Shown piece by piece: positions 3,401 through 61,217 of a DNA stretch of 64,000 nucleotides. The stretch is from Siphonodentalium dalli (Eukaryota > Mollusca > Scaphopoda > Gadilida > Siphonodentaliidae): contig CP136066.1 of the NCBI GenBank assembly GCA_032622095.1, positions 184,114,716 through 184,178,715 of the forward strand. Reading direction: 5' to 3'. The notes beneath the pieces are model-generated. The model saw nothing but the letters and a program-made list of their open reading frames with translations. It had not been told where the DNA came from and searched no databases. Numbering within the stretch: the first letter of the stretch is position 1; each line of letters begins with the position of its first letter. Made by a program: the position numbers and the translations under genes.

Positions 3401-6400
3401 ATATATGCTCCCGTTTGCTGAACACATTAATGAAGATCTTGAATGTTTTAGAGAAGTGGCCTTGAATTTTAGATTGGCCTTGAAACGCATTGAATATTTT
3501 CACAAAGTGACATTCAATGGTCTTGAATTAGGGCCCTGCTAACCGTTTGATTTGCTTCGAAACTGCCACATTGTTTGGGTCATATTCGAAACCTTTGACA
3601 TGTCCAGAAAAAGAGCCGAACAAACACCACCGCCGGGTGATCATAGATCACTAAATGCATACACTGTGCACACATTATAAAACGGTCGGTCATATATATA
3701 TTTCAAAATGACATACTGTAGTAATCGCTCACTTTCCATGTTGGAAATATCCATGTAAATAATGTGTTAATTTTACTGTTTGTCCACTAAGTTCACTCAC
3801 TATTTTCTAATGTCCACTAATGTTCACGATGATGCAGTTGGTAATCAATTTCGAGGTTCGGTTCGTTTCGATTAAAAGCCAAGATACTGATTTGGTTTCA
3901 AGATACTGTTCCGACTTAAAGCCATATTATGGGTACATTAAAGTGATACGTTAGTACTCAGGCACTGTACCAACTGGGGGATGTGAAATTCTACTAACAT
4001 CGCTGAAAATTTTAACGAAATCAACCACACCACTCCATAGAAAACATCGCCTGAACAACGCGCAATTGCAAATATTTACATCTCGATTCGGGACGCAACA
4101 AATGGTGATAAACGATCACAAATGATTTGGCCACCGAGAGCCATTGAATTTAATTGATATATAAGAATGACAGTGTTTTGTAAATTTGGATTTATATTCG
4201 CAAAAATAACCACTTTGAGCAAGATTATTCTACATTTCTATTTGGTCACCCTATCTGAGTGTTTCACATCACTTTAAATTCAGTTTTGCAGGGCCCCACC
4301 TTATCCCTTCCTATGCTAAATACTCACTGACGAGTAGTGCTCTTTGGAAATGTTCAGATAATAAGTTCAACAAATGACCATCGTTTGTTGAACTTATTAC
4401 TAAACATTTCCCTCTAATGAATGTGAATTCTTCTGCACTTGTAATGTCATTTCGACTGACTGTCGTCAGCTCATCTATCCTTAGCATCCCTCCAAATGAA
4501 TAATAGACCATTCCAACGTATATGTTTATAACTGGCTGGGAGAATCCATTTAGTATCGAAAGGGTGAAATATCATGGGGAAGAATGTACATAGAAAGGCG
4601 ATTCAAATTAGAAACCATTTTGGTCACATATCCATGGGAACATGCTCTGCATGTGAATGGCGACTTTCAAATTGAGTGACAATGATTAAAGAAGTGTAAA
4701 AACAAACTGAATAATAATTAAAAACTCTAATTTAGAGAATGTTTTGTATTGAAAATGGGATGATTGTTGAAAATCTTACAAAGATATCTGGCAAGAAATA
4801 ACCAAAATTCTTTCTACTTTTAGGAATCGTTGGATGAAGTAACTGTGAAAGACATGCTGGAGGGTGATAATATGTATACATGTTCAAAATGCCAAAAGAA
4901 AGTTAGGGCCGAGAAAAGGTAAGCCATAAGTTATATACATACTCTACTAGGCTGACAATATGAATACATGTTCTAAATGCCAAAAGAAAGTCAGTGTCGA
5001 GAAAAACTAAGCCATTCTAAGATAAATACATACTCCATGAGGGTGATAATATGTACACATGTTCTGAATGCCAAAAGAAAGTTTGGGCCGAGAAAAGGTA
5101 AGCCAGTATAAGTTATATACAGTCTCCACAAGGCTGACAATATGAATACATGTTCTAAATGCCAAAAGTAAGTTAGGGTCGAGAAAATATAAGACATTAT
5201 AAGATATATACATACTCTATGAGGGTGACAATATTTGTATGTGTTCTGAATGCCAAAGAAAGTCGGGGGCTGAGATAAAACAAAAAAAGCCTAGTATATG
5301 TTTCGAAGGTGCTTAGTAACCGATACTAAATTCTGCAATTCTGCTAAGTTTATTAAAAGAAATTTGTCAGAGTGCCCTCAAAATCTTAATAAATATTTTC
5401 TTTATTCTTTGTGTTGAACACCCTTAGGCTCAAGCCTGCAAATAGTGTGTCTGTCATTTGCAGAATGAGGTCCCCAGAGGGTGAATTTAGTGATGCTATC
5501 CCACACCGCGGGCTAGCATCACCAAATTCACTAATGGTGAACATCACCTACTTCCAACTGGCAAACTTCAATCTGAAGTTGAGGCCTAAGATGATAGAGG
5601 TTCCCAGAGCGTAAATTCGCTGACGCTAGCCCACAGTGTGTGATAGTGTCACTAAATACACCTTCTGGGGACCTTGTTCTGCAAATGAGATACAATATTT
5701 CCAAGCTTGCTTAGGCTAGAAAGTACATAGCTTTGATGTGGGAACTGTATTGTTGGAAAATTAATACAGAAAAACAAATTTACTGGCCAACCAACCCTAT
5801 TATTTCCAGTCTACGGCCCTTGCTTCTCTGTGTCCAAGCCTTGAAATAGTGTGTCTGTCATTCGCAGAATGAGGTCCCCAGAGGGTGAATTTAGTGATGC
5901 TACCCCACATAGCGGGCTAGCATCACCAAATTCACCCTCTGGGAACCTCATTCTGCTGAGGTGTAAGCAGAATGAGGTCCCCAGAGGGTGAATTTGGTGA
6001 TGCTACTCCGCTATGCGGGGTAGCATCACTAAATTCATCCTCTGGAGACCTCATTCTGCAAATGACAGACACACTATTTCAAGGCTTCTCTGTGTCTCTT
6101 GCAATTATTACTTGGAAAAAATTCAACATGTCCATCTTGTTTATTTACAGGGCCTGTTTCAGAAAGTTGCCGAGAATTTTGTGTTTTAACACGATGAGAT
6201 ACACTTTTAACATGGTGACGATGATGAAAGAGAAGGTCAACACACATTTCTCGTTCCCTCTCATCCTCGACATGTCGCCATATATGGAGAGTCTGCTCAT
6301 AGGTCCGGACAAGCTCAAACTTCATGGTACGATTTTATCATGTCTCTCAAGGAATCTCATCTTGTTCTTTAACCCTTTCATGTCGGGAACTGAACTGGTG

Positions 6401-9400
6401 CAGCATTAAAAACAGTGTGCCAGTCCATTCTTTTATATATGTGAGTCTCCCATAGGGAGCCTCACATATATAAGAGAATGCACTGGCTTACAAGGACAAG
6501 GTAAATTTTGTTAGGCCAATGTATTCTCTTATATATGCGAGGCTCCCTATGTGAGAATGAATTAGCATTGGGTTTTCTCAAATTTCAGCAAGCTCCAGTC
6601 ATGAAAGGGTTAAATTATAACTTTTTCAGACACCTACAATTTTTGGTTCTTTTAACCCTTCAATGACTGGAGCTTCCTGAATTTTTGCGAAAACCCTGTG
6701 CCAATGCATTCTCTTATATATGCGATTTTCCCACAGGAAGCCTCACATATATAAGAGAATACATTGGTCTAACAATATTTACCTTGACCTTCTAAGCCAG
6801 TGCAGTCTTTTATATATGCAAGGCTCCCTATGGGAGACTCGCATATAGAAGAGAATGATCTGGCACAGGGCATTTAATGCTGCACCAGCGCAGCTCCCAT
6901 CATGAAATGGTTATGTCTGTTAAGGTCTGGTATGTGTATGAAGCTAGTTTATAGGAACCATTTTGGTTTTCAATATTTTTATGTGAAACTAAGAGAAAAG
7001 TGGTGTTAAATTATCTTCTGTATGGTGTTGTAACTGGAGGTCTGGAACCCCGAAAACATCTTTAAGGTTCTCGTTCATTACTTACAAGCACGCTTTATTG
7101 CCTCGGAATATGTATTTTATTGATATTTGCTGTCGTAAAACCAACTAAAACAAGAAAATATAGTGTGCTGCGGTATACCGACTATTCAAGAAATCCAATA
7201 CCGACTACACAGTATTTAAAATAAAACCGCGGTATGACTAAATACCGAAAAACCATGAAGCCCTAGGCAACTTCAACAATACTAAAGAAAGATGGATATA
7301 TTTAAGGTTTAAATCCATGAAATCATTTTAGGGAGTATGTAAAACATTCCATATTATTTTGGCACAAATTTCATGATAGTCTGTACTACATTTCAACATG
7401 CATTTGGTTTGATTGGAAATTTAAGATTTACTATTTACCATATTTTTTTAGATGAGGAGGATTTGATAGAGGAAGACGAGGCCGATGAGATTTATGAATT
7501 TGAACTGATAGGAGTGACGGTACATACGGGTACGGCCGATGGTGGCCATTACTACAGCTTTATACGGGACCGAATTAATCGGACGGAGGGAGAGCAAGAC
7601 CAATGGTGTGTTATTCCTATTAATGCCAAATGGCAGTTGCCCTCAATAATATTGGCTTTTGAATTGTTCCTGGTATTGAAATAGGTCAATAAATACCTGA
7701 ATTACCTTTCTACGAGCATTATGTGTCCCAGAAAGATGCATTGAAGCCATAACAAATACAACTTAAGAGCACAATGATTGCAATATTTATATGCATTTCA
7801 ATTCTAACCCACGACTTTAGGAAAAGGTATATTTCGTTGTCTTAACATGAAACAATTTAGAAACTTCACGCACTGCTTTCTCTTGTTTTAATCACCAAAA
7901 CTATGTAGTACCATAAATTTTCTGAGTGAAGTCAGCTATAGATGTAGATGGTCTACATGTGCAATATTTATGCGACTGCTGATTAAAAATTCGAACCGAC
8001 ATGAACAGAACGATCTCAAATTTATCGTAAAATATCAGAAACAGAACACATATTTTCAGTGCCATATTGACAAATTTGTTCTTAACTGTTCTGAGTTTAT
8101 GTTTTGAGGTACCTTTTACCAAATTATGTATACTTAATTTTGCGGTTTGAGAGAGCCATGTCCGTTTAGCCTGTAAAATAAATAGAAACTGCAGGTTTAT
8201 AGAGACATTTTACTAAGTGGATATAAGTAAGAAAAGTGGAAGAAAATTGGTGTCGTAAAATGTAAGGTTTATATAACCAATGAACACAATCTGCAGCATT
8301 TATTTGCAATAGATTAGTTACCACTCAAGAAATTAATTTGAATATTAGTGTAATACTTTTTATCATGTTTAATAGTGGGAGCTCTTTACCAACATCCTGT
8401 GATAGGAATTACTTTTTACCATGCACTTGCAAGCCTGAGTTTAGTGTGCCTGTCATTTTCAGAATGAGGTCCCCAGAGGGCGAATTTAGTGATGCTATCT
8501 CGCATAGCGGACTAGCATCACTGAATTCACTCTCTGGGGACCTCATTCTGCAAATGACAGGCACATAAAACTCAGGCTTGTGCACTTGAGGTTATTATGT
8601 TCACTGGTCAGAAGGAATGCAATAATAGGAACATTTTATTGAACATTATAGTCATTTAGCTAATAATTCTGGTCATGTTTTAGGTATCTGTTTAATGATG
8701 CTGAAGTGAAGGCTTTTGATCCGAGTCAGATAGCTACCGAGTGTTTCGGAGGCGAGATGACCGTAAGTCTCTTAGTTATGTTTAGCCTTCCACCTTTGTT
8801 CTAAATATTTAACGAATTATTCCATTCTGTTTCCTTTTAGCCCATTATTTTAGGATTCTTTGCCTTGAGATCGCCTGAAGTTGTTTGAAAAAATTCAGAA
8901 AACTCTTACAATTTTTGAGGGACTAGTTGTGTTTTCCATATAACGAAAATGAAATTCTTACTTTTTATACTCCAATTTAATAACAAAATTCATATATTCA
9001 GCCCTGTTAATTGGTGTCAGCTATCCGTTGAGCCGGGGCAAACAGAAATTTTGTCAGCTATATTTTTGTCAGAAGCTGCCAATGTTTTGTGCAAAATTTA
9101 AACAAATTTCTGCAGACATTGTCTTAGTGTTGCGCTGTGGAAGTCTGGTTACAGCAAAAACTCATTGTTGAATGCCAAAGACTACTAAGAAAATAAGGAT
9201 TACCTTGATAATCAACAATTTTAAGCCAGACCCAATTTTTAGCTCACCTGAGCTATAGTCATCACTCCTTGTCCGTCATCCGTCCGTCTGTCAGAGACAT
9301 AACTCTTCCCCCATAGTAATTCTTAAAATGGCTCCTCACGAGCCATCAGTCCTATTTAGCTAATATGTAGTAACTAGTATGGAGGGTCCTTGTGTTACTT

Positions 9401-15400: not shown

Positions 15401-18400
15401 TAAAATGATTTGTTATATATTTTCATGTCAAAATTTATCAATTTTAGCCGACGATGCTACAGTGGATAGAGCTGCTGACAAAGCAGTTTAACACGTGTCC
15501 ACCGGCTTGTGAGGTTTGTATCAATGTCGATATCTTTATTAATATGACATAAACAAAATTACCATAGTTCTTATTTCTCACATTGTGTCAGATCACATAA
15601 ACAGAATAGACTGTGTATGAGCTTACTGATGCTATCACATTCAGGTCATGATTTAACTTTACTGCAATCAATATATTGAATTCTAGTTTGCTTTTATTTA
15701 ATGGGTTTCAGATGATGACTAGTCGATTCACTTTAGTTTTTGTCTTGTTAGATATATTCCTACATTATCATTAACCATATCCATGAGTTCAATGTCCTAA
15801 TGAGGGACCGGGTAAAAAAATAGAAAAATTAATTAAAAAAATAAAATTTCAAGCCTAACTACGGACCCATTTTGTTTTTTGGCTTGTAACTCAAACCAGA
15901 CATTTAATTTTCTTTGGCCTTATTCAGCCACATGTATTTCATAAAACATATGTAACAGTAACATCAACACTCCCTTTAATTTCTCATGTATTCTTACAGT
16001 GGTTTCTGGACCACATGGCTGAGACTGATTGGTGGCCACAGCAGATTCTCATCAAATGTCCCAACCAGATGGTCAGACAGGTAAGGTTAAAATTTAGGAG
16101 AAAATAGCACAAGTGATTGTAAATACTGCTCAATATCACACAGAAAATATCACAAGTGATTTTAAATCTGCTTGACATCACACAGAAAATTATTTCTGCT
16201 CAACATCACCCAGAAAATATCACAAGTGATTTTAAATCTGCTTGACATCACACAGAAAAGTGATTGCAAATTCTGCTCGTCATCGCTTAGAAAAGATCAC
16301 AAGTAATTGAAAATATTACAAGTGTTTGTAAATTCTGCTGTACATTGCTTAGGAATTGTGGTGGGGGGGGGGGTGGGTGTCAAAATATTTTTTCCGGGTT
16401 TGTATGATGGGGTGGGTGGGTGGGTTTTGAAGAGGACCCAAAGGTCTAAAAGATTTTTTTTTAAATCTTCGATATTTTTCAACTATTTTTGGCTTTAAAA
16501 CTTAAGAGAGAATGTATTTTTAACATAAAAACTGCACTTATACAGTCAGTATAGATTATTTCTTGTTGCAAATTACTAAATACCCAGTATTTGTCAGTCT
16601 ATGTCACCCCAAACATAAAATGCATGGACACGTTACATAAGCAATCACTGCCATGTCAAACTAAGCTTATCACATACACCAGCATGTAATAGGTGCTTGA
16701 TAGGAGACAGACAGTAAGTGGTGGAAATACAAATATTCTTTCGAAAAAGTTCGATTTCATGATTATTGGGGTGGGTGTCAAAAATGGTTGGAAAAAAACT
16801 TGATAAAACCGGGAAAAAATTACAGTCGAGGGGTGGATGGGTTTAAAAAATGTCAAACTCCAAAGGTAAAAAATTATCATACCAGTACAGTATGCTTCTG
16901 AATTTTTTTCCCGTCACCGTCCTGCTGTGTATGTTTCTTTCAATCGGACCACTAAAAATGAAGGTTCTTGGCAACAAGTATGTTTTGCCAAAACTGATAA
17001 ATTGTTCTTTATTTTTAGATGTTTCATCGCCTTCTGATTCATGTGATAAGCCAGCTGAGACCAGCTCATGTTAACCTCTATCTCCAGCCAATCATAGAAA
17101 CGTAAGTATTTAAAAACCCACCCCTAAATTATCATAGACATGTAAGTATTCAATAAGCTAGCTGCGACAGGCTCATCATAGTCTTTTTTTCATTTTTCAA
17201 ACAATCCTAGGGACAATCATTGCCATGCCAATTTCCTGTGACTGACGCAAACGCCAGATGGTTGCATTCTTAAAAGAAAAATAAAACCTAACATTACGTT
17301 TGAACGAGATGTTTCATGAGTATACACAGTTTAAAAAAAAAAATTATTGGTCCGTCCGTTTGGGTACACATTTGAGCCTTATGTGGTCAGTGGAGGAACC
17401 TAAGACAAAAGAAAATTTGACATGATCGACCACCTAGTGTCAAACTACCATCTAGTGCCCCCGTTATTCCATACAATTTAAGAGATAAGTGGTAGTCTTA
17501 AATGGTTAAACCTGTCAAAAACAACAATAGAAAGACCACTTAAAGACCAAATGTATGGGCTTCTGTCCGTTCGCTTTTTTGTTTTCGGTTGATAACTTTA
17601 ATATGTCTGAACTGAATGGAATTAAATTTGGTATTTAGTTTACTAGCCCAAAATACAGGTCAAGTTCAAATTTGGGTCCTGCCCAAGTTCAAATTTGGGA
17701 TCCGCCTGCCAATTTTCACCAGAGTTATGGCCCTTTGTTGAAATTACCAAAAGCGTATTTTACCACGCCCTGGTGATGCTCTTGTGATATACTGCTCACC
17801 ACGAAGTAAAATTTAACACATTAAGAGCCTCCATTTTCCAATATGACAACTTCTGTCTTCAGAGATGAAAATTAGGATGCCTATGTTAGATTTTATGTAA
17901 ATTCTGTCTATGACTTACTATTACATAATTCTTTCTATTAACCGTTATTCTTAATTTCTGATTTCAGTGAGGAGGGGGACGTTGACACGTCTCAGATGGG
18001 AACCAAATCCTGTGTAACTCGCTTCATCCGGAAACTACTGACAGTGGTAAGATGACTTAACTTGTTCAATAATAAATGGAGCATTTATACATTGTCATGA
18101 TACATACCTCAGACAAAAGTCACTTGCACCATTTGTGTTTTTGGAGCTTTTTACTACCCGGTACTTAGGCCAAATAAAAATGTGTTTTGCTTCACTGGCC
18201 CGGCCAAATTGGATTTCAACCTCCGCATTGAACGTTTTTATTGACATGGCAAACAAAAATTTAAAATATAAAAACTCGCGTTATATGCTTACAACAAAAA
18301 TATGCAACACAATACCTAATTGAAGCATCTTATTGCATTGTAATTTTGAGCATTGTCTTCCATCTTTGTTTGCTTATTTGATGCAACTGCATTTTATTCA

Positions 18401-21400
18401 AGGTTAGACCATAAATTAGGCTTGTTGACTTAAATAACTCAGTTTGGCAAGTGGCAGTAAGTATAATAGTGCCATGCTACTGTGCCAACGACCTTGGCAT
18501 TGATGGTAAAGTGATAAAAGTTGGAATCCTGGATATGGACCTATTTGTAAGTGAACACGTGCTACAGTACATGACGATTTACATGATGTATAGATCCAGA
18601 TGCATGAACCCTTTATATTTGAAGCTTGTGTTTTTCAAAAGTAACTTTCACCAACATTTATAATAAGGATCAACTATTTTTATATTAAATGAAATGTTCT
18701 GGTTCCGTGTTTTAATATTTTTTATTGATCGATCGATTTTATTGAACATTAAGTAGCACCAATGGATGCAAATTAGTAGGCTAAGTAATATGCTAATCAT
18801 GCTTGTGTTTTTCAAAAGTAACTTTCACCAACATTTATAATAAGGATCAACTATTTTTATATTAAATGAAATGTTCTGGTTCCGTGTTTTAATATTTTTT
18901 ATTGATCGATCGATTTTATTGAACATGAAGTAGCACCAATGGATACAAATTAGTAGGCTACGTAATATGCTTGTACTAATGCAAATTAAGAAAAAATAGA
19001 ACTTTGGGACAATATTTGAGCTCCATGTAGATGTCTACTTATTATGCCCCCACTTTCGAAGAAAATGGGGGGTATACTGGATTGACTGCGTCCGTCCGTC
19101 AGTCCGTCACACTTTCTATGTCTGTCCATCACACTTTCTCTCCCTCCGTGTGTCCGTCCGACCTCATAATTAGAACAACTATGAACCGATTTCGATAATT
19201 TTTTGTATGCAATCTCCTTAGGACCGCCTCTCCGCATGATGCTAATTGCGGTGCGGTCCGACTTTCTTTTTTTAAGTTACGACTTATTTTGACCTAGAAA
19301 ATTCTGTCCGACTTAATCCGACTTAATAACTTTAACAAATATGAACCGATTTCAATAATTTTTGGTATACATGCTTCTCACAACACCCTCTCTACATGTT
19401 GCGGCTCAGGGTTGGCTCGGACTGTTTTTCCTAACATTACACTTCATTTTCGACTTATTTTGACTTAGAAAATTTTGGGATTTTGTTTTTGTGGATGCTA
19501 TCAAGTTAGGATATTTTCCGGAAGTTTCTTCGAATATGGGTTTGGAACAATAATTTTTACCGCAGTTAAGTTGCGTTTCATTTTCTACCCTTTTTTTGGG
19601 TTTCTGCAATCATTCGAACAAATATGAACCAATTTGAATAATTTGTTCGGTACAAGCTTCTTGCGACACCATATCAATATTATGAATCCAAATTTTTCTT
19701 CAAAGTTAAAAAATTTTTTGTTGGGTTTACGGATAATGCGGGTTGAATTTGCCACGGTGGGGGTATGCTATCACGCGAGTGCACACCTCTTGTTTTGGAT
19801 GGATTAACGAAGGAAGTTTCCTTAGAAACAGACTAAGATCAAAATGTTTACATACAAGACTATGTCAATGTTGCTGCAATGTAGGCATTAGATGGTATGT
19901 TATCGGGAAATAAAACCCGCCCACCCGTACTGATTTGAAAAAACAATGAAACAAAACATTATTTTTGTTTGGCCTTAATATGTCTAGAGAATTCTAAACA
20001 CCATGCATGCTTTTATCTGTGCCAATTATTGTAGATTTTTCATCGACGTTTATTTGCAAATTATTGAGAATTTTGTTCATATGTGTCCTTGAGGGTTATT
20101 TTTTTTCAAAGATTGAGCAAGTTACATTCATGATGTTGAGGGGTTTTATTTCTTTCAGAATGTATGAATTTCTTTTTTTTTTAGGTTTTTTTTCTTCCGA
20201 TTCTTATATGATCTGGAGTGTTGAATATTTTTTTTTTCAGATTAAGGGAGTATTATATATGATTTTGAGGGGTCTATTTTAGTCAGATTGAGCTATCATG
20301 CTTCACATGATCTTGGGGTGTCAACTTTTCACACTGAGAGAGTATTATATATGATTTCGAAGACTATCTTTTTTCATTTTAAGCGAATTTCATGTATAAT
20401 CTTGAGGGGTGTATTTTTCAGATTGATCGAGTTCGACAGCATAGTAAGTACCTGTCGGAGTATTTTGCTTTCCTGTTCGACTTCTCTAAGATGGGGGAAG
20501 AGGAATGCCTGTTTCTGATACAGATCAATGCCATCACGACCATGATTAACTTCTACATGGGCCAGAAAGCTCAAGACAATTATGTAAGTTGGTTCAATCG
20601 TACATTTAATATAATAAGTTAGTATTCCTTGACGGGGTAATTTATATGAGGGATTCTGTCTTTTTAAATTGAGCATTGTAAATTTAACAATAAGAATTAA
20701 CATTTGGGAAACCTACTAAACCGAAAAAAGAAAAAAAAATTTAAATTACAAAAAGTAAAGCAAGAGACTAAAACACGCCTAAAAATAAAATTACTGATGA
20801 AGTCTTATGAAATTTTGAGAGGTGACTGCAGGCAAAGGCATGAAATTTTTGGCAGATTTATTTTTGACCAAATGTAAATTTCTTCGACATTTTTTTATTA
20901 TCAAAATCTGGCCATTTTAGACTTTGGTTATTTGATAATGAATTTGGTTGACCTTCCAGGTTGAGATTCTGTCAGACGATGAAGAGGAGGAGGAAGTGAT
21001 ATCGATCTCGGAGGAGAACTGTCGACCGCAGTCACTAGAGAAGATGATCTCGCTCATTGCTCTTCTTGTCGAGAAGGCTCGAGGCTCCGACAACAGTCTG
21101 CAGCTCTCGGAGAAGGACTATAACTCTATTATTGGTGGCAAGGTATTTATCATATTGTCGGAAATAACCATTAGCACTTTCTATTCTAAATACCGGTTGA
21201 TGAACATTTCCCACAAAGGATATGAATCATTCTGCACTTGTATCTGCCTTTTCTCTGTCTGTTGTTTGCTTTTATTACCTGAACATTCCTCCAAATGAAT
21301 AATAAACCATTAATGTATTCATTATGAGTGAACAGGAGAAACCATTTAGTATAGAAAGGGTTAAATTACTATATTGTATTTTTTATGCTCCCGAAATGTC

Positions 21401-30400: not shown

Positions 30401-33400
30401 CTTAACTGTGATATAAACTTCTCCTCAAATTTATATCCTATGTACGTAAAACTTCAGTACATTGTTACTGACACATTGAAGATGTGCAACATATTTAGTC
30501 ATTATGCACGTTGTATCATTGATGTAATCAAATCCTCACTTGTACCATCAGCAAGGGATATTTTGGTCAGCGACCTTTTATTTGTTTAATTTCCATGCTG
30601 TAGATATTACATTTGAGTCAAGAAGCAGATACTTTCATACCTAAATAGATAAATAACTTCTGGGTGAAGTGAACATTATTTTGTCATTGTTAAGTATTTA
30701 TCAGGGTTTTCTCATTCAACTGAAACATAATCATAATATCAATTTATGTAACTTTGCTATGCAGTTATGTTGACGTTTTGTGATTTAACTTTTCAGATGC
30801 ACAGACACATGGTACAATGAAGCTCACCTGTTACTTTTGTTTAATGACCTACTGTCTCATATCCAAAACAGAAAAGTTGCTGGTAAGTACGTTCTCTGTA
30901 TTTCTCCGCCAACCAGCCCTCTCCCCCCCCCCCCCCCAATTCCTGGTGATGTTATATTGACCTACTGTCTCATATCCAAAACAGAAAAGTTTCTAGTAAG
31001 TACATCCTCTTTGTTACTCCGCCAACCAGCCCCCTTCCAATCCTGGTGATGTTATAATGATTACTGTCTCATATCAAAAACAGAAAAATTGCTGGTAAGT
31101 ACATCTCTGCATTTCTCCATCCACCAACCCCCCAAATCCTAGTGATGTTATAATGACCTACCGTCTCATATCCAAAACAGAAAAGTTAGTGGTAAGTAGC
31201 TTCATTTCATTCCTCCACCCAACCACCCCCTCCATCCGTCATCTATCAGTATAAAAAAAATATATGACCCCCCCCCCCCCCCCCCATGTCCAATTGTACC
31301 CAAATTGGTACAAGACGATCTGAGATATAACATGTTTTCCAAATGTTATCAAGGCGATATTTTCTCTGATATTTTCACTTCTCCGAAGACAATTATGCTT
31401 TCAGCGGTGTCTGTCATAACAAAATACCAAAACCAAATTCTGAACAAACTCCACGAACCACTTGTGGCTTTCTTTATATCATTATCAGCGGTGCAGTGGT
31501 GGTGATATTTTCCTGCATGTCCAGGCATGTCATGTTCTTGTCACACGTCATTTTGAAAGGGAAATCCCCTAGTAATGATATAATGACTTACTGTCTCATA
31601 TCCAAAACAGAAACATTGGTGGTAAGTTGAAGCTCTCAACTACATCTGAATTGCTTGCAATTTGAAACATGAGCTCGCCCAACAGCTAATTACAACAACT
31701 ACTAACGACCTCATAAATATAATAGAGATTCACCAATGGCCCTATCCTAACCATGTGCCAATGCATTCTCTTATATATGCTAGTCTCTCATAGGGAGCCT
31801 CGCATAAATACAGTCCTTCGAATTTGGAAAACGTAGGTGCGCGATATATCGCTCGGAGCTTTTGGAATTTGCGCGCGCCTTTTTTGCGGGAGCACAATTC
31901 GAATTAACATGGATGAAATGATTACTGAATAAAGACAAATACAATTATAATGATACACACGTGTAATTCCAAGTGTGCCTTTGGCAACTTAAAGTGAAAA
32001 CAGAAATAAAAACATATGTTTATATTGTAGTACAATATCTAGTCCACAATAATCCGATTATCTGGCAATCCAGGTGAATCTAATCACGGTAATGAGTCCA
32101 CTTCCGCGTCTGAGAGCGCATGCTCACCAGACTCGCAGTCACTTCAAACTTCAAACTCGGAAGTGGAATCGTTACCGCAATCAGATTCACCGGAATCCGA
32201 CGAATCAACCGGGGCTCTCTTTCGTTTTGATAGAGTCGGTATTTGAGGAGGCTCCAATGTCCATTTTTCGCTTTCTCCGAATCGAGAGATACTGGCTTCG
32301 AAGTATAGCTTCGAAGTATAGTTAAACTTAAAACCTAATCTATGGCAATAATATTCAAATGAATCGGCGAATCCCGCATGCCGAAACATCAAACGAGGCT
32401 GCCAAAGAATTGACACTGTTTTTTGCGGGAACTCGCACGTGCAGCAGTTGTGACGAGCTGTACCCCAATCATTGACTGAGAAAGACGCCAGCGGCCGCTT
32501 TGATCTTTGTTATTATGTTCGTAATCAACGTCATCGCTACTGAGAAAGATACACGGTTAATAGTCTTGTCGGCGTTTAACCAATGATGCGCTGTTTGTTA
32601 AAATCTCGTTCACTGGCTGCAAATTCCGACGCGCGCATTTAAATTTTTCGGCGTGCGCATTTAATAACTCGCTGGTTTTTAGGTCCACGTGCGCCAAGGC
32701 GCGCAAGCGCAATTGCGCACCTCAAAATCGAAGGACTGTATATAAGAGAATGCATTGGCCTAACAATATTTACCTTGATCTTTTAAGCCTATGCATTATC
32801 TTATATATGTGAGGCTCCCTATGGGAGACTCGCATATATAAGAGAATGCACTGGCACAGGGTCTTTAATGTTGCACAAGTGCAGCTCTCATCATGAATGG
32901 GTTAAACAGCCCTCAAAATATGCGATAGCAAAACACCATAGAAAAAGCTGTAGAAGCCCATATAGAATTTCATACAATTCCAAAGAAATGCTGTGGAAGG
33001 CTGTTTAAAACAGAAATGTTGGACTTCATTTATTTTGTGTGCCAGAATACACAAGACAGTGGATGGTGTGTCAACATACTTTATGCATGAATGATTATAT
33101 GTTTTTGTATCTGTTTGCAAGTTAAAGTGAGACTGTACCTAAATCCAGACATTTATGGGGCCATCTACTATATTCAACAGAAAATAGGCAACAAATGAGT
33201 AAATTTGAGTCAGGGATGATTGCAAAATATACCAATGTACTCTATGAAAGATGTAAATCAACACAGTAATTATAATGGAAATGATTAAATGAATTCTGTT
33301 ATTGGATATTTTCTTTGAGTTTAGTAGGAGATGGCCCCATAAATGGCTGCACTTAGGTACAGTCTCCCTTTACCATGTAAATAAAGTTATTAAAAAGAAG

Positions 33401-36400: not shown

Positions 36401-39400
36401 ACCCTGTGCCAATGCATTCTCTTATATATGTGAGTCTCCCATAGGGAGCCTTGCATATATAAGAGAATACATTGGCCTAACAATATTTACCTTGCCCTTG
36501 CAAGCCAGTGCATTCTCTTATATATGCGAGGCTCCCTATTGGAGACTTGCATATATAAGAATATGTGCAGGATATTTGATGCTGCACCAGCGCAGCTCCC
36601 ATCATGAAAGTGCTGACAGAATTTTGTAATATATAAGAAAAAATGGATTTTTAATGTAGACTATGAAGTTTTCTACCTATCTGGTGATAGATGCTACATT
36701 TGTAACATTGTGTATACTGTTTTACACCATCTTTATATACAACTGACTTTCATGTACAGTAATGCCCTAAATAATCGACTCCTTAACCACAGAAGAATTA
36801 TGGGTAACTTTTCAGGATTTAGTCGGAAATATGGCTTGTTGCCATTAATTGGAAAGCTCTCAGTGAGAGCTTTCCGATGAATGGCAACAAGCCATATTTC
36901 GGACTAAATCCTGAAAAGTTACCCATAATTCTTCTGTGGTTTTGGGTAACTTTTCTGGATTTAGTCGGAAATATGGCTTGTTGCCATTCATCGGAAAGCT
37001 CTCATGAGAGCTTTCCGATTAATGGCAACAAGCCATATTTCCGACTAAATCCTGAAAAGTTACCCATAATTCTTCGGTGGTTAAGGAGTCGATTATTTAT
37101 GGCCTTACTGTAAGTGTCATGTGAGGCATATTGAATGTCCTTTTACAGTGCTGATCATGAGGATCAGGATGTGATTCTGTTTAACCGATGCATGCTACCG
37201 TCCTACTATGGCTTATTGAGGATGTGCTGTCAGCAATCACGGCCGTTCACTCGACAACTGTCACAACATCAGAACATTCAGTGGGCTTTCAAGAACATAT
37301 CGCCCTACCCGGCACAGTACACGGCTGTAAGTAATATTATGATCTCAGAACATTCAATGGGCTTTTAAGAACATATCACAATATACCTGGCACAGTTCAC
37401 TGCTGTATTTAATATTTTAACATCAGAACATTCAGTGTGCTTTCCAGAACATATCCTCCTACCCGGCACAGTACACATTTGGTTAACATCATAACATCAG
37501 AATATTTAGTTAGCTTTCAAAAACATATCACCCTAGCCGGCACAGTTCACTTTTGGTGATTTTGTTTTACTGGACTACAACACTAACATCCAACAGAGTA
37601 TTCAATCCCGAAATGTAAGTGAGATAAGGACAATCAGCACGTCATCTCTTTGTTTTTATTTGTCATAAAATGGGTGGAACGAAATGAAATCAATTGAGAT
37701 TACCCGAGAAAAACATTAATTAACATTAAGTACAATATATGCATATGAAAATAAATATAATATAATTTTTAAATACCCTCACCTGCATGTGACACCATTG
37801 AAACACTCAAGGACAAGTTTTTGTTGTGGATAAATAAAATATGTAGATTTAGGATTTCTATTGTTATATTGTATTTACAGGCAGTGGAAGAGCTGTTTCG
37901 TATCATGCGTCTGATGGCGACAGTTTACGAGGACAGCACAGAAGAAGAGACCAAAGCTGTTAACACTTTCAAACGAACGACGATACAGCTTTATCTACAC
38001 TGCCTGGATGCTCGCTCCATGTGGCAAACCCTCATTAGGTGCATTTTTTATCTGCTACTCTCAAACCCATCAATAAACTTTCAATTGATCACAAACGCTT
38101 TACTGCTCAATATTATCATATACTGAGCTCTTTGCTGTTATGGCTTTTTAGCAGTGAATGAAATTATGGGAAAATATTTAACTCCCCAAAACTGACCTCA
38201 TAGGCATATGCCAATTTTCCTGTTTCACAGGCCCATGCAAATGCTCACGAAAACCGTGTGTGCAACCTTGATAATCGTGGTTTATAAGTAAGAAATTTTT
38301 TTAATCTCTACAAAATAATTGCGGTACATTTATACAAACTACTCCGAACTGAGATCGAACGTACCCGTTTCCAGATTTAAATTTCTGATTAAATAAACGA
38401 CCGTTGTGATAAATTGCATCTGCAAACTCATATGTTGTGGCAAAATACATGTTATGAATCTCTGCTCATTGCAAGTTCTTTAATGTACAGTAATGCTCTA
38501 AGTAATCGACTTCTTAACCACAGCAGAATTATGGGTAACTTTTCAGGATTTAGTCGGAAATATGGCTTGTTGCCATTCATCGGAAAGCTCTCCACGAGAG
38601 CTTTCCGATGAATGGCAACAAGCCATATTTCCGACTAAATCCTGAAAAGTTACCCATAATTCTGCTGTGGTTAAGAAGTCGATTACTTAGAGCATTACTG
38701 TAGCTCTGATTTAATGTAGCTTATACGTCCGGTCTCAGTGCGGCTATTTAGCAGCAAAGAGTTTGACATATATTAAGCAGGGAGCATGTTTATCATCAAA
38801 AAATTTGCCCAAGCCTTGAAATAGCGTGCCTGTCATTTGCAGAATGAGGTCCCCAGAGGGTGAATTTAGTGATGCTACCCCGCATAGCGGGTTAGCATCA
38901 CCAAATTCACCCCTCTGGGAACCTCATTCTGTTGAGTTGTAAGCAGAATGAGGTCCCCAGAGGGTGAATTTGGTGATGCTAACCCGCTATGCGGGGTAGC
39001 ATCACTAAATTCACCCTCTGGGGACCTCATTCTGCAAATGACAGACACGCTATTTCAAGGCTCGAGTTTGCCGTTGAGATACTGACATATAATTGTAAAA
39101 CATGAATGATGAGCCGTGAAATTTCAAATTCAAAATTTAATACAAATCTTTTAAGACAAGGACATGACATAGTATTTATAGTTTTCCTTCAATAAGTGGT
39201 CTAAGGGCAGCAAGTTATCTGCAACTAGTCTTTAATAATAATATCAACCGAATGCAAGGGATCACAAATGAATTATTAAATTCTTGTATAACTAACTCTA
39301 CATTGCCAATCATTAAATATTTGAAAATGGTATTATCAATAGAAAATTCAAAAATAACTTTTAATCAAATTAAGGATTACCTAGATTGCTTACTGCACAT

Positions 39401-45400: not shown

Positions 45401-48400
45401 CTGCACTAGCTCAGCTCCCATTATGCAAGGGTTAATGGTTTTTCTTCCTTGAACAGGTACTCAGTTGAGTGATGTGAAAAGTGCTTTGGCCGGATGGAAA
45501 GAGAGAATGGAACTGGCAAAGAAACTACTCACACTGCTCAACTCATACACTCCTCCGGAAATCAAGTCGGTTGCAATAGGTTAGTCTAGTCATATTCTCT
45601 TCCAGGGTTCACCAAGTCTGCAAATAGTGTGTCTGTCATTTGCATAATGTGGTCCCCAGAGGGTGAATTTAGTGACACTATCCCACACAGCGGGCTAGCA
45701 TCACCAAATTCACCCCTCTGGGGACCTCATTCTGCTTATGCCTTGTCTTTGGAAATAATCTATAGTCTCAAATTAACACTGATTTTAGTTAGTTTTTCTG
45801 TCTTCTTCAGCAACTTCAACTGGGGAACTTCAATCTGATTGTAGGTCTCCCATAGAGTTGAGGCTATATGTAGTATATTCTAAGTATAACATTTAGGGAG
45901 ATGATGATAGAGTAGCATAACTAGCCTTGAAATATATTAATGATATGAAATTTTCTTTTGCCATTTTCCATAAAAACAGTCGAATTTGGCAAATTATCTG
46001 AATTTGAAAGTGTAAATTATCTTTACCAAAATGGATACCAACATGGATACCAATTGTGACTACAATTTCAAATAGAATATTGAAATTGTAGTAACATTTG
46101 GTATCCATGTTGGTATCCATGTTTGTGCCAAAACATTTCTGAATTCTTCTAACCAGTACTCAGGTCTCTTATTTTCTCCTGTAAATTTTTTGAAGGATAT
46201 TTCAGTCCTTCCCACAAGGAAAACACAGCAATTATTTGCTTCTGCAATTCAGAAGACAGATGTAAATATTGAGTCCATAATTTAATCGTAGCTTGGGGTT
46301 TTCTCAAACAAAATGTCATTGTGGGATCGACTGATGTCTACAGTTACACTTTCATATGCACATAAAGGAAGACAGGAAAGGATCTAAATAAACCTTAAAA
46401 TAGTTAAATAATGAATCAACGATTACAGTCACCATAAACATTTTGACAAGGGGGACGAATATGTATGGGTGTGAGAGCAATCGCTGCCATCTCCTGGGAT
46501 GGACTGAGAATTTACAACTATGCTACAGTAATGCTCTAAATAATCGACTCCTTAACCACATCAGAATTATGGGTAACTTTTCAGGATTTAGTCGGAAATA
46601 TGGCAACAAGCCATATTTCCAACTAAATCCTGAAAAGTTACCCATAATTCTGCTGTGGTTAAGGAGTCGATTATTTAGAGCATTACTATATTGAGTCAGT
46701 CCTACGTGTTAATATTGAATTACTTCCATTTTCCCCTGTAGATTGTGCTTCCAGATAATCAGAAATTGGCCCGAGAGGCCTTTTCATTATCGGAACATCA
46801 CTAATTACTTCCATTTTCCCCTATAGATGTTTTGAAGGAGATGCTATTACTGCTACAGAATGAGTGTGTCAGTACCATGGTTCCAATCCTAGTACAAGCT
46901 CATATGGCGTTCCAAGAAACAAATTCTCCTCGTAAGTAGCATTCCACAGAGAATCAAATTTTTTATTCCTTGTACAATTTGTTCAAGTTATTATATAGTT
47001 AATTTAATTGTTGGTCTGTACCAGACCTGAAAAACACACAAAGCATACAGTAATGCCCTAAGTAATCGACCCCTTAACCACAGAAGAATTATTGGTAACT
47101 TTTCAGGATTTAGTCGGAAATATGGCTTGTTGCCATTCATCGGAAAAAACATACTGTAAACAACATTGTATGATGACATATTTATTATCCATCTGTATGT
47201 TTATCCAAATGACGTCACCCAGTCCAGATAACTTTTATAGAAGTCATATTGGACTCGATTCGAGTCCAATGTGACTTCCAGGAGTCCAATATTATTTTTT
47301 CCCGAATTATCATTTGACAGCTTTTGCCCAATAAGAAATAGTGTTAGTTAAGGGATGGATAATAATATTATATATCACACAGTTCTTGCCTTGCGCAAAC
47401 TGCGAGACAGCAGGTGGGTTCAAATACTTTTGCCCGGGCGATGGTTCGCTTTCCACAATAGTCGGCTCGCGCCAACCGTGATTTTAGCAATAGTTGAAGA
47501 CCATAACTCGGGCGACAGTTCGCTTGCCCAGCCATTATCAAAACTATTTTCTGATATGTGATCAGGCTTTGTCCAATCAAAAGACAGTATGATCATGTGT
47601 GAACTCTAAATAGATAGGCCAAATAAATAAAAATACTGTGTTCTGAGGTACCTCCCTCATCACCTAAATAGAGCCTCATAAATAAAAATACTGTGTTCTG
47701 AGGTACCTCCCTCATCACCTAAATAGAGCCTCATCAATAAAAATACTGTGTTCTGAGGTACCTCCCTCATCACCTAAATAGAGACTCATAAATAAAAATA
47801 CTGTGTTCTGAGGTACCTCCCTCATCACCTAAATAGAGACTCATCAAACATATAACACAATTTCTGTTTGTTCACGATAATTAACCCTTCCATGACTGGA
47901 GTGTCCTGAAAATTTGAGAAAACCCTGTGCCAATGCATTCTCTTATATATGCTAGGCTTCCTGTGGGAGACTCGCATATATAAGAGAATGCACTGGCACA
48001 TGATCATTAATGCTGCACCAGCGCAACTCCTGTCATGAAACGGTTAATGGCCAAATAACATAACTACTCTTGCAATGTTCAGTCAGTGGAATAATCCACA
48101 TTTCAATTAAAATACAATACCATACTTCTGTCTAGGGTGATTTAGTTGACCGTGCTACTATAATTGTTAATATCTTTCTCATTTTCTTCAGACTCTACGG
48201 GTCCGTACTTTCCTAGTCGAGGTCAGAAGACCATTGTCTCCAAGTCAAACATCCGACCACCGAGACCACAGTTCCAAATGTTCCTCCATTCTAGTCAAAT
48301 TGAAGCTGCCAGGGTAATTTTCTTGTTTTCTTAGTTTAAGTCATATTTAATAATAACATTCTGTTTAAAATGTTTTTTCTTCAAATGTATGTCATTGATA

Positions 48401-51400
48401 TTGATTTCGCTTGGTAATACATAAAATTCTGAGGATTCATAACTGGTCTAAAAATGTTTTTTTTTTTTAAACTTTTTCCAGGCCAAAAAAGGTCAATTGT
48501 AAATAGCACATATGATATTAGAACTGAGAGTTTTGTCATGTTTACTTAAACAGTATCTGTCAGGATTAATTCTTAAGGTTTAGTGAATTCTTAGGATTCC
48601 GTATGATATCAGAAAAGCTTACATTCAGTATTATCCATGTCAGAGACATATCATATAATTATGCAGTGTATTCAGGTGTATTGATGATTTAATGAAGCTT
48701 ATTTATAAGCATACACAAGCCTTGAACTAGTGTGTCTGTCATTTGCAGAATGAGGTCCCCAGAAGGTGAATTTAGTGACGCTATACCACACAGTTGGCTA
48801 GCATCACCAAATTCACCCTCTGGGGACCTCATTCTGCTTAAACTTCAACTACTATGGGAGACCAAGGATCAGATTGAAGTAGTTCCCTAGTTGAAGTTGG
48901 TGATATTCAGCCATTAGTCACCTCGATTATGCATTTAATCCTCTGCAAATTAGGGATATAGAAACTCAACAGAAGGGAAAAAGTAACTAAAAACAATGTT
49001 AATTTAAAACCATAGATACTTACCAGAAGATGAGGCCTAAGCAGAATGAGGTCCCCAGAGGGTGAATTTGGTGATGCTTGCACACTGTGTGGGATAGCAT
49101 CACTAAATTCATCCTCTGGAGACCTCATTCTGCAAATGACAGACAGACTATTTGCAGGCTTGTGCTTTGAAAGTGTTTACACTCATTGTTGTCTATAATT
49201 TTACAGGGTGTTGATGAGTCATATGATACTACCTTGGATGATTATTTCCATCTGTATCATGCTTTGGTGGAGTTTACACTCATTGTTGTCTATAATTTTA
49301 CAGGGTGTTGATGAGTCATATGATGCTGCTTTGAATGATTACTTCCATCCGTATCATGGTCTGGTGGATCTCATGTGCCGAGTGGCTGCTAATCAACAAA
49401 ACCTCAACGAGCAAGTCATTAATCTCAGTAAGTAGGATAGTCGGCTTTCCATTTATTTTGGGAACATAATGTTTACGTAAATTGACAACCTGCCTCAAAC
49501 AGAAATTCAGACATATAAATGATATTATTTCAAAATTTACGCCCAAATTTCACCGTTTGTGTGTCAACGTTGGCATTGGTTCAGAAATTAATCTCAAATG
49601 TAAAGTATTATCGTAAATTTGACATGTAGAAAAGAAAAAGAATATCAACCCCAGCAAAACTAGGTATATAAAATGCAGATTATTATTGTTGCACCCATTT
49701 AAATTCAGTCCCAAAATCATGATCACATACAAAATATGATATGGCTTTGGCTATTGGTAGAATTGTTAAAAAAAAAAAATTCCGACAAAAATTGATGATG
49801 AATGATGACTTTTTATTTTCTGATGTTTCCATTCATCACTGACAACCGCTCTCACCATAATGGGGCCTCATATGACATAAGACATCCTTATTATTATTGT
49901 CCAAATTGTATTGATTGTTAAATAATTAGTCACCTGTATTTTCCATCATAATTCCCCCACCCTTGAAGAGAATGTGGTGTATACTGGATTGACCTTGTCT
50001 GTCCACGTCCATCCAGACATTTATTCGTCTGTCCATCAGTTCAGATTTTACATTATTCCATAATTCATCTTTGTTTATCTGAAAATGTTGGGTTTTTTGT
50101 CTGTCCGAGCAGATAATCACCACTGCCGGTTGACTAATCTCAATGAAAATTGGTATGGATGTTCACTACTATAACGGGTATCAATTGAATATTCAATCGT
50201 TTTTTTTCCGGTTTTACGTTCTAGAGTTACTCATCTTTGTTTATCTGAAAATGTTGGTTTTTTTGTGCATCCGAGCAGATATCTCTACCACTGATTGACG
50301 AATCTCAAAGAAATTTGGTATGGATGTACACTACTATGAGAGCAATCAATTGAGTGTTTAATCATTTTTTTTCTGGTTTTCAGTTCTAGAGTTATTCATC
50401 TTTGATTATTTGGAAATGTCAGTTTTTTGTCCTTATCTTTTTATATTCTGAACCTCTAATGGGTCATGTTGAAGATAGAAGAATGCTGCTAAAAATCAAT
50501 AACAATTACAAACAAAATTGCAGACTTGGGACCCTGAAATTGTCTGCATATCTTTGAACTTGTATAACTTGTGGAAAACAAGAATATTAAATAGTGTTCA
50601 CCCCTCATTACACTTTCACATACATTAAACTATCACATTTTCATGTATAACTGCATGTGAAATCAGGCATTATGCTGATGAACTTTTATTATTTCAAATC
50701 AATCTATTAACAGGTGCTATGGTGGCTTATGAAGGTGTTCCTCTACATGATCCACACTTCGCTAAGCTCTGGTACGAGATCTACCAGTCTGAGGTGAGTC
50801 CCATGCTGTAATATGTTCCTCTCTCCATATATCGGATTTTTTACTCACTTTTAAATTAGCATGCCAGTGCACAAATGTGTTTATTCAGACTGGAGTTTTC
50901 GTTTTCTTCTGAATAAATTGTTATAGTGTCTATAGAGATCTGTCCAACGCCAAAATTAGAATTGTGTTTGTTTCCCCTGCCTTGTTAGTAAGCAAAAGCC
51001 ATATGATACATGTAGTAACAAGCCTTGAAATAGCGTGTCTGTCATTTGCAGAATAAGGTCCCCAGAGGGTGAATTTAGTGATGCTACCCCGCATAGCGGG
51101 CTAGCATCAACAAATTCACCCTTGGGGGATCTCATTCTGCTTACACCTCAGCAGAATGAGGTTCCCAGAGGGTGAATTTGGTGATGCTAGCCTGCTATGC
51201 GGGGGTAGCATCACTAAATTGTGTTTTGTGGGTAATATTGCATTCGTACTACCATACTATACTATTAGTATATTCTTGAGGAAATTAATAATTTGGTAAC
51301 TTTTATTTTTAAATTATAACCTGCAACCAAGGCTCTCCGTGCCTTTAAACACATCTTATGCATTGGTAGGTACATGTTTTTTGTTCCTCATGGTACTGAG

Positions 51401-60963: not shown

Positions 60964-61217
60964 TAAGCCTTGAAATAGCGTGTCTGTCATTTGCAGAATG
61001 AGGTCCCCAGAGGGTGAATTTAGTGATGCTACCCCGCATAGCGGGCTAGTATCACCAAATTCACCCTCTGGGGACCTCATTCTGCTCACAACTCAGCAGA
61101 ATGAGGTCCCCAGAGGGTGAATTTGGTGATGCTAGCCCGCTATGCAGGGTAGCATCACTAAATTCACCCTCTGGGAACCTCATTCTGCAAATGACAGGCA
61201 CACTATTTCAAGGCTTG
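60964..61217. mobile_element. Family B MITE, double-hairpin form
   Basis: AAGCCTTGAAATAGCGTG to CACTATTTCAAGGCTTG; two back-to-back hairpins. Confidence 0.83.

Follow-up and report, generated by a model that had tools for sequence, protein, structure and literature searches.

Small tandem duplications across exon edges in USP34 and other genes of the scaphopod Siphonodentalium dalli

Results

Copied exon edges in USP34

The window, a stretch of 64,000 nucleotides of the Siphonodentalium dalli genome (an assembly of 9 contigs and 2.23 Gb), carries USP34 on its forward strand. A 334-residue join of predicted exons finds PDB 7w3r (USP34) as its best solved-structure match (E 2.9e-134) and matches Pfam UCH at 7.1e-42, and the gene call of an earlier note on this DNA therefore holds. 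Our exon model has 39 exons in the window against 42 in that note, a few small exons probably having been missed, and the note's exon numbers were mapped by counting along our model. The analysed USP34 sequence comprises 134 kb, namely the window and 70 kb upstream of it (negative coordinates count back from the window start); the upstream part holds the upstream half of the gene and lies outside the sequence given to the note's author. With 8 of 73 predicted exons dropped and 5 added by hand, the set contains 70 exons and 140 junctions.

The note had named seven exons (6, 16, 18, 27, 30, 35 and 37) at which an exon edge and its splice site are copied. A gapped search, in which each junction with 30 bases on either side was compared with the 300 bases to its left and right, reveals extra copies at all seven, with scores of 46, 17, 23, 46, 33, 24 and 54, respectively; the copies at exons 16, 18 and 35 are weak. 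Exons 6, 27, 30 and 37 also pass a strict array rule (score of at least 25, with 8 or more bases to either side of the junction). The copies do adjoin their exons, as the note had said of every case, but this condition is built into how such copies are sought. Self-alignment of the 134 kb gives 279 segments with a score of at least 17, against 2, 0, 0, 1 and 2 in five dinucleotide shuffles.

Table 1. USP34 exons with copied edges, and in-place arrays in the window
Feature	Position	Strand	Remarks
Exon 6	4824-4918	+	exon model; real donor 4918/4919; within the protein matching 7w3r
Exon 6 end and donor array	4860..5278	+	91-bp units: real copy, three full copies, partial fifth
In-place array, junction not contained	16126..16314	+	begins 45 bp after the donor of exon 16000-16080
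Exon 16	17019-17101	+	exon model
Exon 16 donor (17101) and one weak copy	17091..17156	+	21/25 bases; decoy donor 17141 intact
Exon 18 acceptor, 4 degenerate copies	20097..20422	+	intact AG before 20287, 20159 and 20112; broken before 20333
Exon 18	20422-20583	+	exon model
Exon 27	30797-30882	+	exon model
Exon 27 donor, four copies	30842..31636	+	three in about 99-bp units
Exon 30	37149-37326	+	exon model
Exon 30 donor, 2 copies and a partial one	37261..37557	+	74-78 bp units; decoy 37404 intact, 37478 broken
Exon 35 acceptor copy	46718..46743	+	25/26 bases; AG intact before 46742; real site before 46827
Exon 35	46827-46931	+	exon model
Exon 37 acceptor and exon start, two 97-bp copies	49163..49368	+	real site before 49304
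Exon 37	49304-49427	+	exon model
In-place array, junction not contained	51356..51575	+	ends 13 bp before the exon at 51589

Decoy sites in these arrays have decayed to different degrees. At exon 6, the decoy donor at 5097 is intact while those at 5006 and 5188 are broken, and the likeness among copies is uneven: 0.92 between copies 1 and 3, 0.90 between 2 and 4, 0.88 between 1 and 4, and 0.80 for both 2-3 and 3-4. This unevenness suggests that the array grew by a 91-bp step and then by a 182-bp step. All four decoy donors of exon 27 (30995, 31094, 31191 and 31621) keep their GT. The acceptor of exon 35 has one near and one far copy, and that of exon 37 a single extra copy, whose decoy acceptor before 49207 is like the real one at 57 of 60 bases. 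Three more cases lie in the upstream 70 kb, at the acceptors -63543, -26143 and -24936.

The arrays probably arose in place

The junction arrays consist of head-to-tail copies of a unit that contains exon edge, splice site and intron sequence, the form of a tandem duplication made in place across an exon-intron boundary. A whole-genome search, which can miss matches, found no other locus for the arrays of exons 6 and 30 and only its own locus for that of exon 27; for the remaining junction arrays, no single match elsewhere in a 363.7 kb sample (described below) covers more than 70% of the array. Their units differ in sequence and length, and other genes show the same, which bears out the note's view that the duplications recurred independently. 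For breakpoint microhomology, taken as aligned length minus unit, 18 of 47 arrays have a value of at least 3 and 24 a negative one, in a list that mixes dispersed and multi-copy arrays and supports no conclusion.

Density at junctions and in introns

Whether such duplications prefer exon edges depends on the null that is chosen. Point-wise tests on unmasked sequence give no excess. The near-tandem test finds copies at 9 of 140 USP34 junctions against 7.2 expected, which is not significant, or against 15.4 when all segments are used; a two-sided gapped test at score 18 puts junctions below controls (10/140 vs 19.0). A one-sided test, which omitted junctions near piece ends (leaving 77 of the window's 78, and 62 of the 64 in the other pieces), gives 7/140 vs 8.8 for USP34 and 3/62 vs 5.5 for the other pieces. 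Without masking, introns thus carry tandem copies at no lower density than junctions do and, on a plain reading of the comparison that the note itself had proposed, this goes against a mechanism at junctions. With dispersed repeats masked, and one more junction lost to the mask, the point-wise test at score 25 finds copies at 10 of 201 junctions, where 5.3 are expected.

The same array periods (about 103, 96, 160-170 and 44) recur at many loci; dispersed arrays were therefore set aside, and this changed the outcome. The sample of 363.7 kb comprises four sets: the window, the upstream sequence, 20 other pieces and a group of myosin pieces. Of its 105 arrays, 57 have matches at other places that cover at least 70% of the array and, judging from these matches, are probably the inner structure of dispersed repeats, inserted rather than duplicated in place. 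None of these 57 contains a junction, against 15 of the 48 in-place arrays, where the non-redundant footprint of the arrays leads one to expect 2.88 by total length or 4.32 by unmasked length (P 4.1e-7 or 4.7e-5; 1.5e-5 or 0.0011 with a 1.35x detection bias), a split and a null that were both picked after the first tests had come out negative.

The excess extends to sequence outside the view of the note's author, with 11 junction arrays against 1.67 or 2.31 (P 1.6e-6 or 3e-5; after bias 2.5e-5 or 0.0004). By total length, junction arrays make up 4 of 12 in-place arrays in the window (1.21 expected), 3 of 4 upstream (0.21), and 3 of 22 in the 20 other pieces (0.56), whose exon calls are shaky (37 confident sense calls vs 17 antisense; 5 of the 37 confident exons dropped, leaving 64 junctions). 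The myosin pieces (2 of 30 exons dropped, 55 junctions after end trimming) give 5 of 10 against 0.89, or 1.00 by unmasked length, with four of the five in one gene; this excess had been predicted before the sequences were fetched, as an excess by length, and the exact footprint rule was set later.

Leaving out locus L029 gives 11 vs 2.20 or 3.56, leaving out USP34 gives 8 vs 1.46 or 1.93, and counting arrays with up to two matches elsewhere as in place gives 15/59 vs 3.49 or 5.35. Counting against the excess are the two-copy arrays taken by themselves, 7/28 vs 1.74 or 2.71 (P 0.0021 or 0.021; after bias 0.01 or 0.079), and USP34 by itself, by unmasked length, 7 vs 2.39 (P 0.011, after bias 0.046). 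Young arrays (identity of at least 0.95) contain a junction in 4 of 18 cases against 0.66 or 1.10 (by unmasked length P 0.026, and 0.064 after bias), and old arrays (identity below 0.90) in 9 cases against 1.69 or 2.44, so the two ratios resemble each other. Earlier versions based on unit length had given stronger ratios (10 vs 1.98; 10 vs about 1.7 over three sets), and the footprint version is preferred as the basis for conclusions. When whole arrays are placed as blocks, the excess is gone (15 vs 12.0 or 17.2).

In sum, with dispersed arrays aside, junction arrays number 3.5 to 5 times the footprint expectation, in the unseen sequence too, and the density of in-place duplications at junctions is probably about 3 to 5 times that of the remaining intron, a difference that is supported, not proven. 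The note's suggestion of a local mechanism at junctions is moderately supported, no more: the unmasked point-wise tests go against it and the excess is lost under the whole-block null, whereas by footprint it appears once dispersed arrays are removed.

Decay of the copied sites

The decay of copied splice sites is close to that of neutral sequence: GT or AG survives in 40 of 53, against 43.2 expected under neutrality. This total joins 15 of 20 copies in USP34, against 15.6, and 25 of 33 in a second tally, against 27.6. This fits the tolerance of decoy sites that the note had considered. It also makes it very improbable that the extra sites are kept for a function, whether as reserve splice sites, for stronger exon definition or as a poison-exon switch, and a functional switch was rated low on this ground. 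Many decoys do have an unbroken site equal in strength to the real one (in the L029 donor array, 12 of 14 aligned decoys score 5.0, like the real donor), and use of any of the 15 intact USP34 decoys would lead into a stop codon, a feature consistent with a decay switch; retention is nevertheless not above the neutral expectation, and stops would be expected anyway in random intron of such lengths. In intron gain by tandem duplication (the Rogers model and its variants), an intron between the duplicated sites would be removed from the mRNA; translation read through to each of these 15 decoys meets a stop.

Discussion

We lean, with some reserve, towards the view that small, neutral tandem duplications are made in place across exon edges, probably 3-5 times more densely there than elsewhere, whatever the cause. 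On this view, a segment of about 28 to 120 bp that by chance takes in an exon edge with its splice site would be duplicated in place, by slippage, unequal exchange or end joining. Some of these units would later grow in register, and at exon 6 this probably involved a second, doubled step. The extra copies would become intron and drift, while splicing presumably still uses the outer, original site. The gene would keep working because the first donor copy, or the last acceptor copy, is still joined to the exon body.

A preference for edges might be illusory, if tandem duplication is common in all introns and a reader focused on exons notices the junction cases. Many tandem arrays do lie away from exons, and the unmasked point-wise tests and the whole-block null agree with this account. 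Yet more than half of the background arrays match elsewhere and were probably inserted, and the block null allows the junction to lie in any of the copies, although the real site can be only in the outermost one. The excess in the unseen sets, and in the myosin pieces among them, also speaks against this account, which we find doubtful. It is unlikely, too, that arrays form evenly and merely survive better at exon edges. Deep intron would be overwritten by transposon insertion and deletion while exon-edge DNA is kept, and selection would fix one half of each junction pair, so that arrays at junctions remain recognisable for longer. About 40% of the sampled sequence has a match at another place within the sample, which suggests high turnover, and in simulation a constrained half raises visibility by 1.25 to 1.35 fold. 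Survivorship nonetheless predicts that the excess grows with age, and it is equally large in the young arrays, albeit on four cases, which are few.

Assembly artefact, with copies collapsed or expanded at heterozygous sites, is extremely improbable. A few pairs differ by little or nothing (59/59 at -26143, 53/54 at -24936), but 15 of 20 USP34 copies share 80 to 95% identity with the real site, and assembly errors do not make such divergence. Duplication in place across exon edges remains our preferred reading. A further, tentative possibility is that exon-intron junctions are hot spots of tandem duplication here, perhaps via strand slippage or breaks that accompany transcription or splicing, and so furnish a standing supply of splice sites. 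If so, new introns and alternative exon ends could arise from these extra sites.

Tandem duplication is one proposed source of new introns, and few gained introns have been traced to a source sequence, according to the sections consulted of one study (PMC4974935). Single genes that contain many fresh and decayed junction duplications could be used to measure the rate at which extra splice sites originate and their lifetime, and such a genome would also show whether the spliceosome ignores them. Should the junction excess hold genome-wide, it would imply a mutation process linked to exon edges, of which we found no description in the literature searched. Titles and abstract openings on duplicated splice junctions or intron duplications, a search with most subscription journals outside its coverage, report no genome-wide excess at junctions. 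Isolated examples have been described in humans and plants; here the duplications seem to cluster at exon edges beyond chance.

The human CBS insertion 844ins68 spans intron 7 and exon 8. As described in part of one report, it is a polymorphic 68-bp duplication with a second 3' splice site, in two copies at one locus, and titles cited there state that alternative splicing skips the insert and that the choice of 3' splice site within it is regulated (PMC2630376). It resembles the arrays here as a short duplication that adds an extra splice site and differs in having two copies at one human locus. In potato RdRp, the relevant portion of another paper describes a tandem genomic duplication that crosses an intron-exon boundary and comprises the 3' intron end and the exon start (PMC4974935). 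Its inherited splice signals and diverged copies are like those of our arrays; it made a new intron supported by RNA-seq reads, whereas the extra copies here would become part of the existing intron. Among human paralogs, the excerpted results report variable internal tandem repeats at exon-intron boundaries in 162 alignments, with 27 intron modifications after manual inspection (PMC2812944). Like the arrays here, these are tandem repeats at boundaries, of a kind that can change splicing, but they concern recent paralogs, and the consulted portion of that paper contains no test of junction enrichment.

Another likeness is to a second CBS polymorphism, a 31-bp VNTR at a single locus, c.1444_1467+7(16_21), as given in the same part of the CBS report (PMC2630376). 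By its name, each unit should hold 24 exon and 7 intron bases in 16 to 21 copies, with the donor copied in every unit. The note's remark that no named phenomenon covers such cases is therefore not quite right, since this repeat and the potato duplication, as far as the cited excerpts go, are of the same kind. The VNTR is one human locus; here, several USP34 exons and several genes are involved, with units of 28 to about 120 bp and many decayed copies, and the arrays of the window have longer units and fewer copies. The donor array of L029 has nearly the same form as the CBS repeat: a 28-bp unit of 20 exon and 8 intron bases in 18.8 copies (TRF), with GT in 13 of 14 aligned decoys.

Copied exon edges in USP34

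The window spans C6:184114716-184178715 (C6, a contig) in a genome of 2.23 Gb in 9 contigs. A small gene finder of our own, seeded with the open frames of the window itself, clearly recovers the USP34 gene, on the + strand. The joined exons match both the USP34 structure 7w3r (E 2.9e-134) and Pfam UCH, the same model yields further exons in the 70 kb upstream, and after hand curation it comprises 70 exons, 39 of them within the window. An earlier note had described a copied edge and splice site at exons 6, 16, 18, 27, 30, 35 and 37 (its numbering), and each of the seven indeed carries at least one copy on the intron side. The strongest are those of exons 6, 27, 30 and 37; exons 16, 18 and 35 have only short or decayed ones. 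Three more copied acceptors lie in the upstream half of the gene, at -63543, -26143 and -24936 (counted back from the window start). A genome search, which may miss matches at these arrays, found no second locus for those of exons 6, 27 and 30.

Arrays and other features in the window and in further genome pieces (L numbers; C4, a contig); decoys are extra copied splice sites in the intron beside the real one
Feature	Position	Unit or period	Detail
Exon 6 array		91 bp	182-bp period outscores 91-bp period
Exon 27 array		about 99 bp	four decoy donors, GT in 4/4
Exon 30 array		74-78 bp	
Exon 37 copy		97 bp	57/60 bases alike
L029 donor array	from 3153 (exon 3025-3172)	28 bp (20 exon + 8 intron bases)	18.8 copies (TRF)
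L029 acceptor copies	acceptor 2169	39 bp	10.8 copies (TRF)
L015 duplication	5154-5343	offset 97	93/93 aligned bases identical; first copy ends 6 bp past predicted donor 5240
L029 in-place array	7087-7271		stops 5 bp short of acceptor
Window in-place array	51356-51575		stops 13 bp short of acceptor
L028 in-place array	6083-6149		stops 17 bp short of acceptor
Window dispersed repeat	5864-6059; 60993-61188	103-bp tandem dimer	reads GCAGAATGAGG...CCTCATTCTGC
Window minisatellite	11807-12214	24 bp	17 copies, 96% matches
Window open frames	28111-29681, - strand		long, inside intron
Myosin-head matches	C4:274.2-275.5 Mb		eleven, to one exon (profile about 376-435)

Junctions compared with intron sequence

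A junction was counted when a self-alignment spanned at least 8 bases on either side of it. In USP34, near-tandem pairs spanned 9 of 140 junctions, where introns as background predict 7.2; a count of 9 or more arose in 27% of 2000 circular shifts. All segments together spanned 9 of 140 versus 15.4 expected, and tandem-copy density stayed about the same near exons and far from them. Around other ubiquitin-hydrolase genes, sampled as 20 pieces, 3 of 64 junctions were spanned (5.4 expected). Junctions also fell below controls in a gapped two-sided test at score 18 (10/140 versus 19.0); since the partner of a junction can lie only to one side of it, this test was rerun one-sided, giving 7/140 versus 8.8 in USP34 and 3/62 versus 5.5 in the other pieces. 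Read plainly, these first tests speak against the local mechanism at junctions suggested in the earlier note, with the very outcome it had named as refuting.

Such unmasked tests may mislead, because many intron arrays look, from their sequence, like internal parts of dispersed repeats: the same periods recur at many loci, the arrays match one another over most of their length, and about 40% of the sampled sequence has a match elsewhere in the sample. With that sequence masked, 10 of 201 junctions were spanned at score 25 versus 5.3 expected.

One dispersed, partly palindromic repeat carries a 103-bp tandem dimer in the window and in L014, L015, L020, L024 and L026; in other dispersed arrays the internal period is about 96, 160-170 or 44 bp.

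Arrays classed as in place

A point-wise count gives an n-copy array n-1 chances, and a duplication event captures a junction only if its unit contains it; the expectation was therefore computed by summing (footprint minus 16) x junctions / length over the arrays, where footprint means an array's non-redundant portion. Arrays covered less than 70% by any single match elsewhere in the sample were called in place. Both this rule and the footprint null were chosen after the first tests. Across 363.7 kb (the window, the 70 kb upstream, the 20 other pieces and the myosin pieces), 0 of 57 dispersed arrays and 15 of 48 in-place arrays, from a total of 105, include a junction. The 15 compare with 2.88 expected by total length (P 4.1e-7) or 4.32 by unmasked length (P 4.7e-5), and with 6.15 when all 105 arrays are used (P 0.0018). 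In sequence outside the window, which the earlier note had not covered, 11 in-place junction arrays were found versus 1.67 or 2.31 expected. Two-copy arrays, which depend least on the null chosen, include a junction in 7 of 28 cases versus 1.74 or 2.71 (P 0.0021 or 0.021). When whole arrays are placed as blocks, 12.0 or 17.2 are expected and the 15 are no excess.

These counts slightly favor a concentration of junction duplications at exon edges, and both survival and ascertainment are live rivals to it. In a simulation of array lifetime, the constrained exon half of one copy raised visibility 1.25- to 1.35-fold; corrected by 1.35, P is 1.5e-5 by total and 0.0011 by unmasked length. On our reading, the junction arrays are small tandem duplications made in place across exon edges, neutral, and in some cases expanded to many copies. 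Of the same kind are the duplication in potato RdRp (PMC4974935) and, in human CBS, the 31-bp repeat and the 68-bp insertion (PMC2630376). The frequency of junction duplications within a single genome may be new, as may their probable clustering at exon edges.

Eight uncounted in-place arrays in all touch a junction or lie within 60 bp of one. Three stop before an acceptor (table), so that the region preceding the AG is copied and the AG is not. The L015 duplication failed the 8-base rule and was left out of the junction arrays.

Myosin genes

Before the sequences were fetched, we recorded the prediction that myosin pieces, chosen by exon density alone, would exceed the by-length expectation for junction arrays. 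Three pieces were picked by eye among the myosin matches; scored by the footprint rule, set later than that prediction, 5 of 10 in-place arrays include a junction versus 0.89 or 1.00 expected (hand-worked Poisson, about 0.002 to 0.004). Four lie in one gene (L029), unknown to the author of the earlier note, and one in L028; no array was found in L030. In the most striking case, the L029 donor array, GT is kept in 13 of 14 aligned decoys, 12 of which score 5.0, equal to the real donor. Among the copies of the L029 acceptor, intact and broken AG roughly alternate.

The myosin-head matches on C4, of near-equal score and in both orientations, look like a recent local expansion.

Fate of the copied splice sites

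Harmful decoys would lose GT or AG, and useful ones keep it, beyond the rest of the copy. Against expectations from identity squared, 15 of 20 USP34 decoys (15.6 expected) and 25 of 33 in L028 and L029 (27.6) are intact, a rough comparison in which alignment slightly favors kept sites and some matches span only 12 to 16 bases. If used, all 15 intact USP34 decoys meet a stop codon, and their use would thus mostly give decay targets.

Other features of the window

Three open frames contain the minisatellite, one of 229 residues on the + strand and two, of 148 and 153 residues, on the - strand; no exon role was apparent for it. By motifs in their translation, the intronic open frames on the - strand look like those of a putative non-LTR reverse transcriptase.
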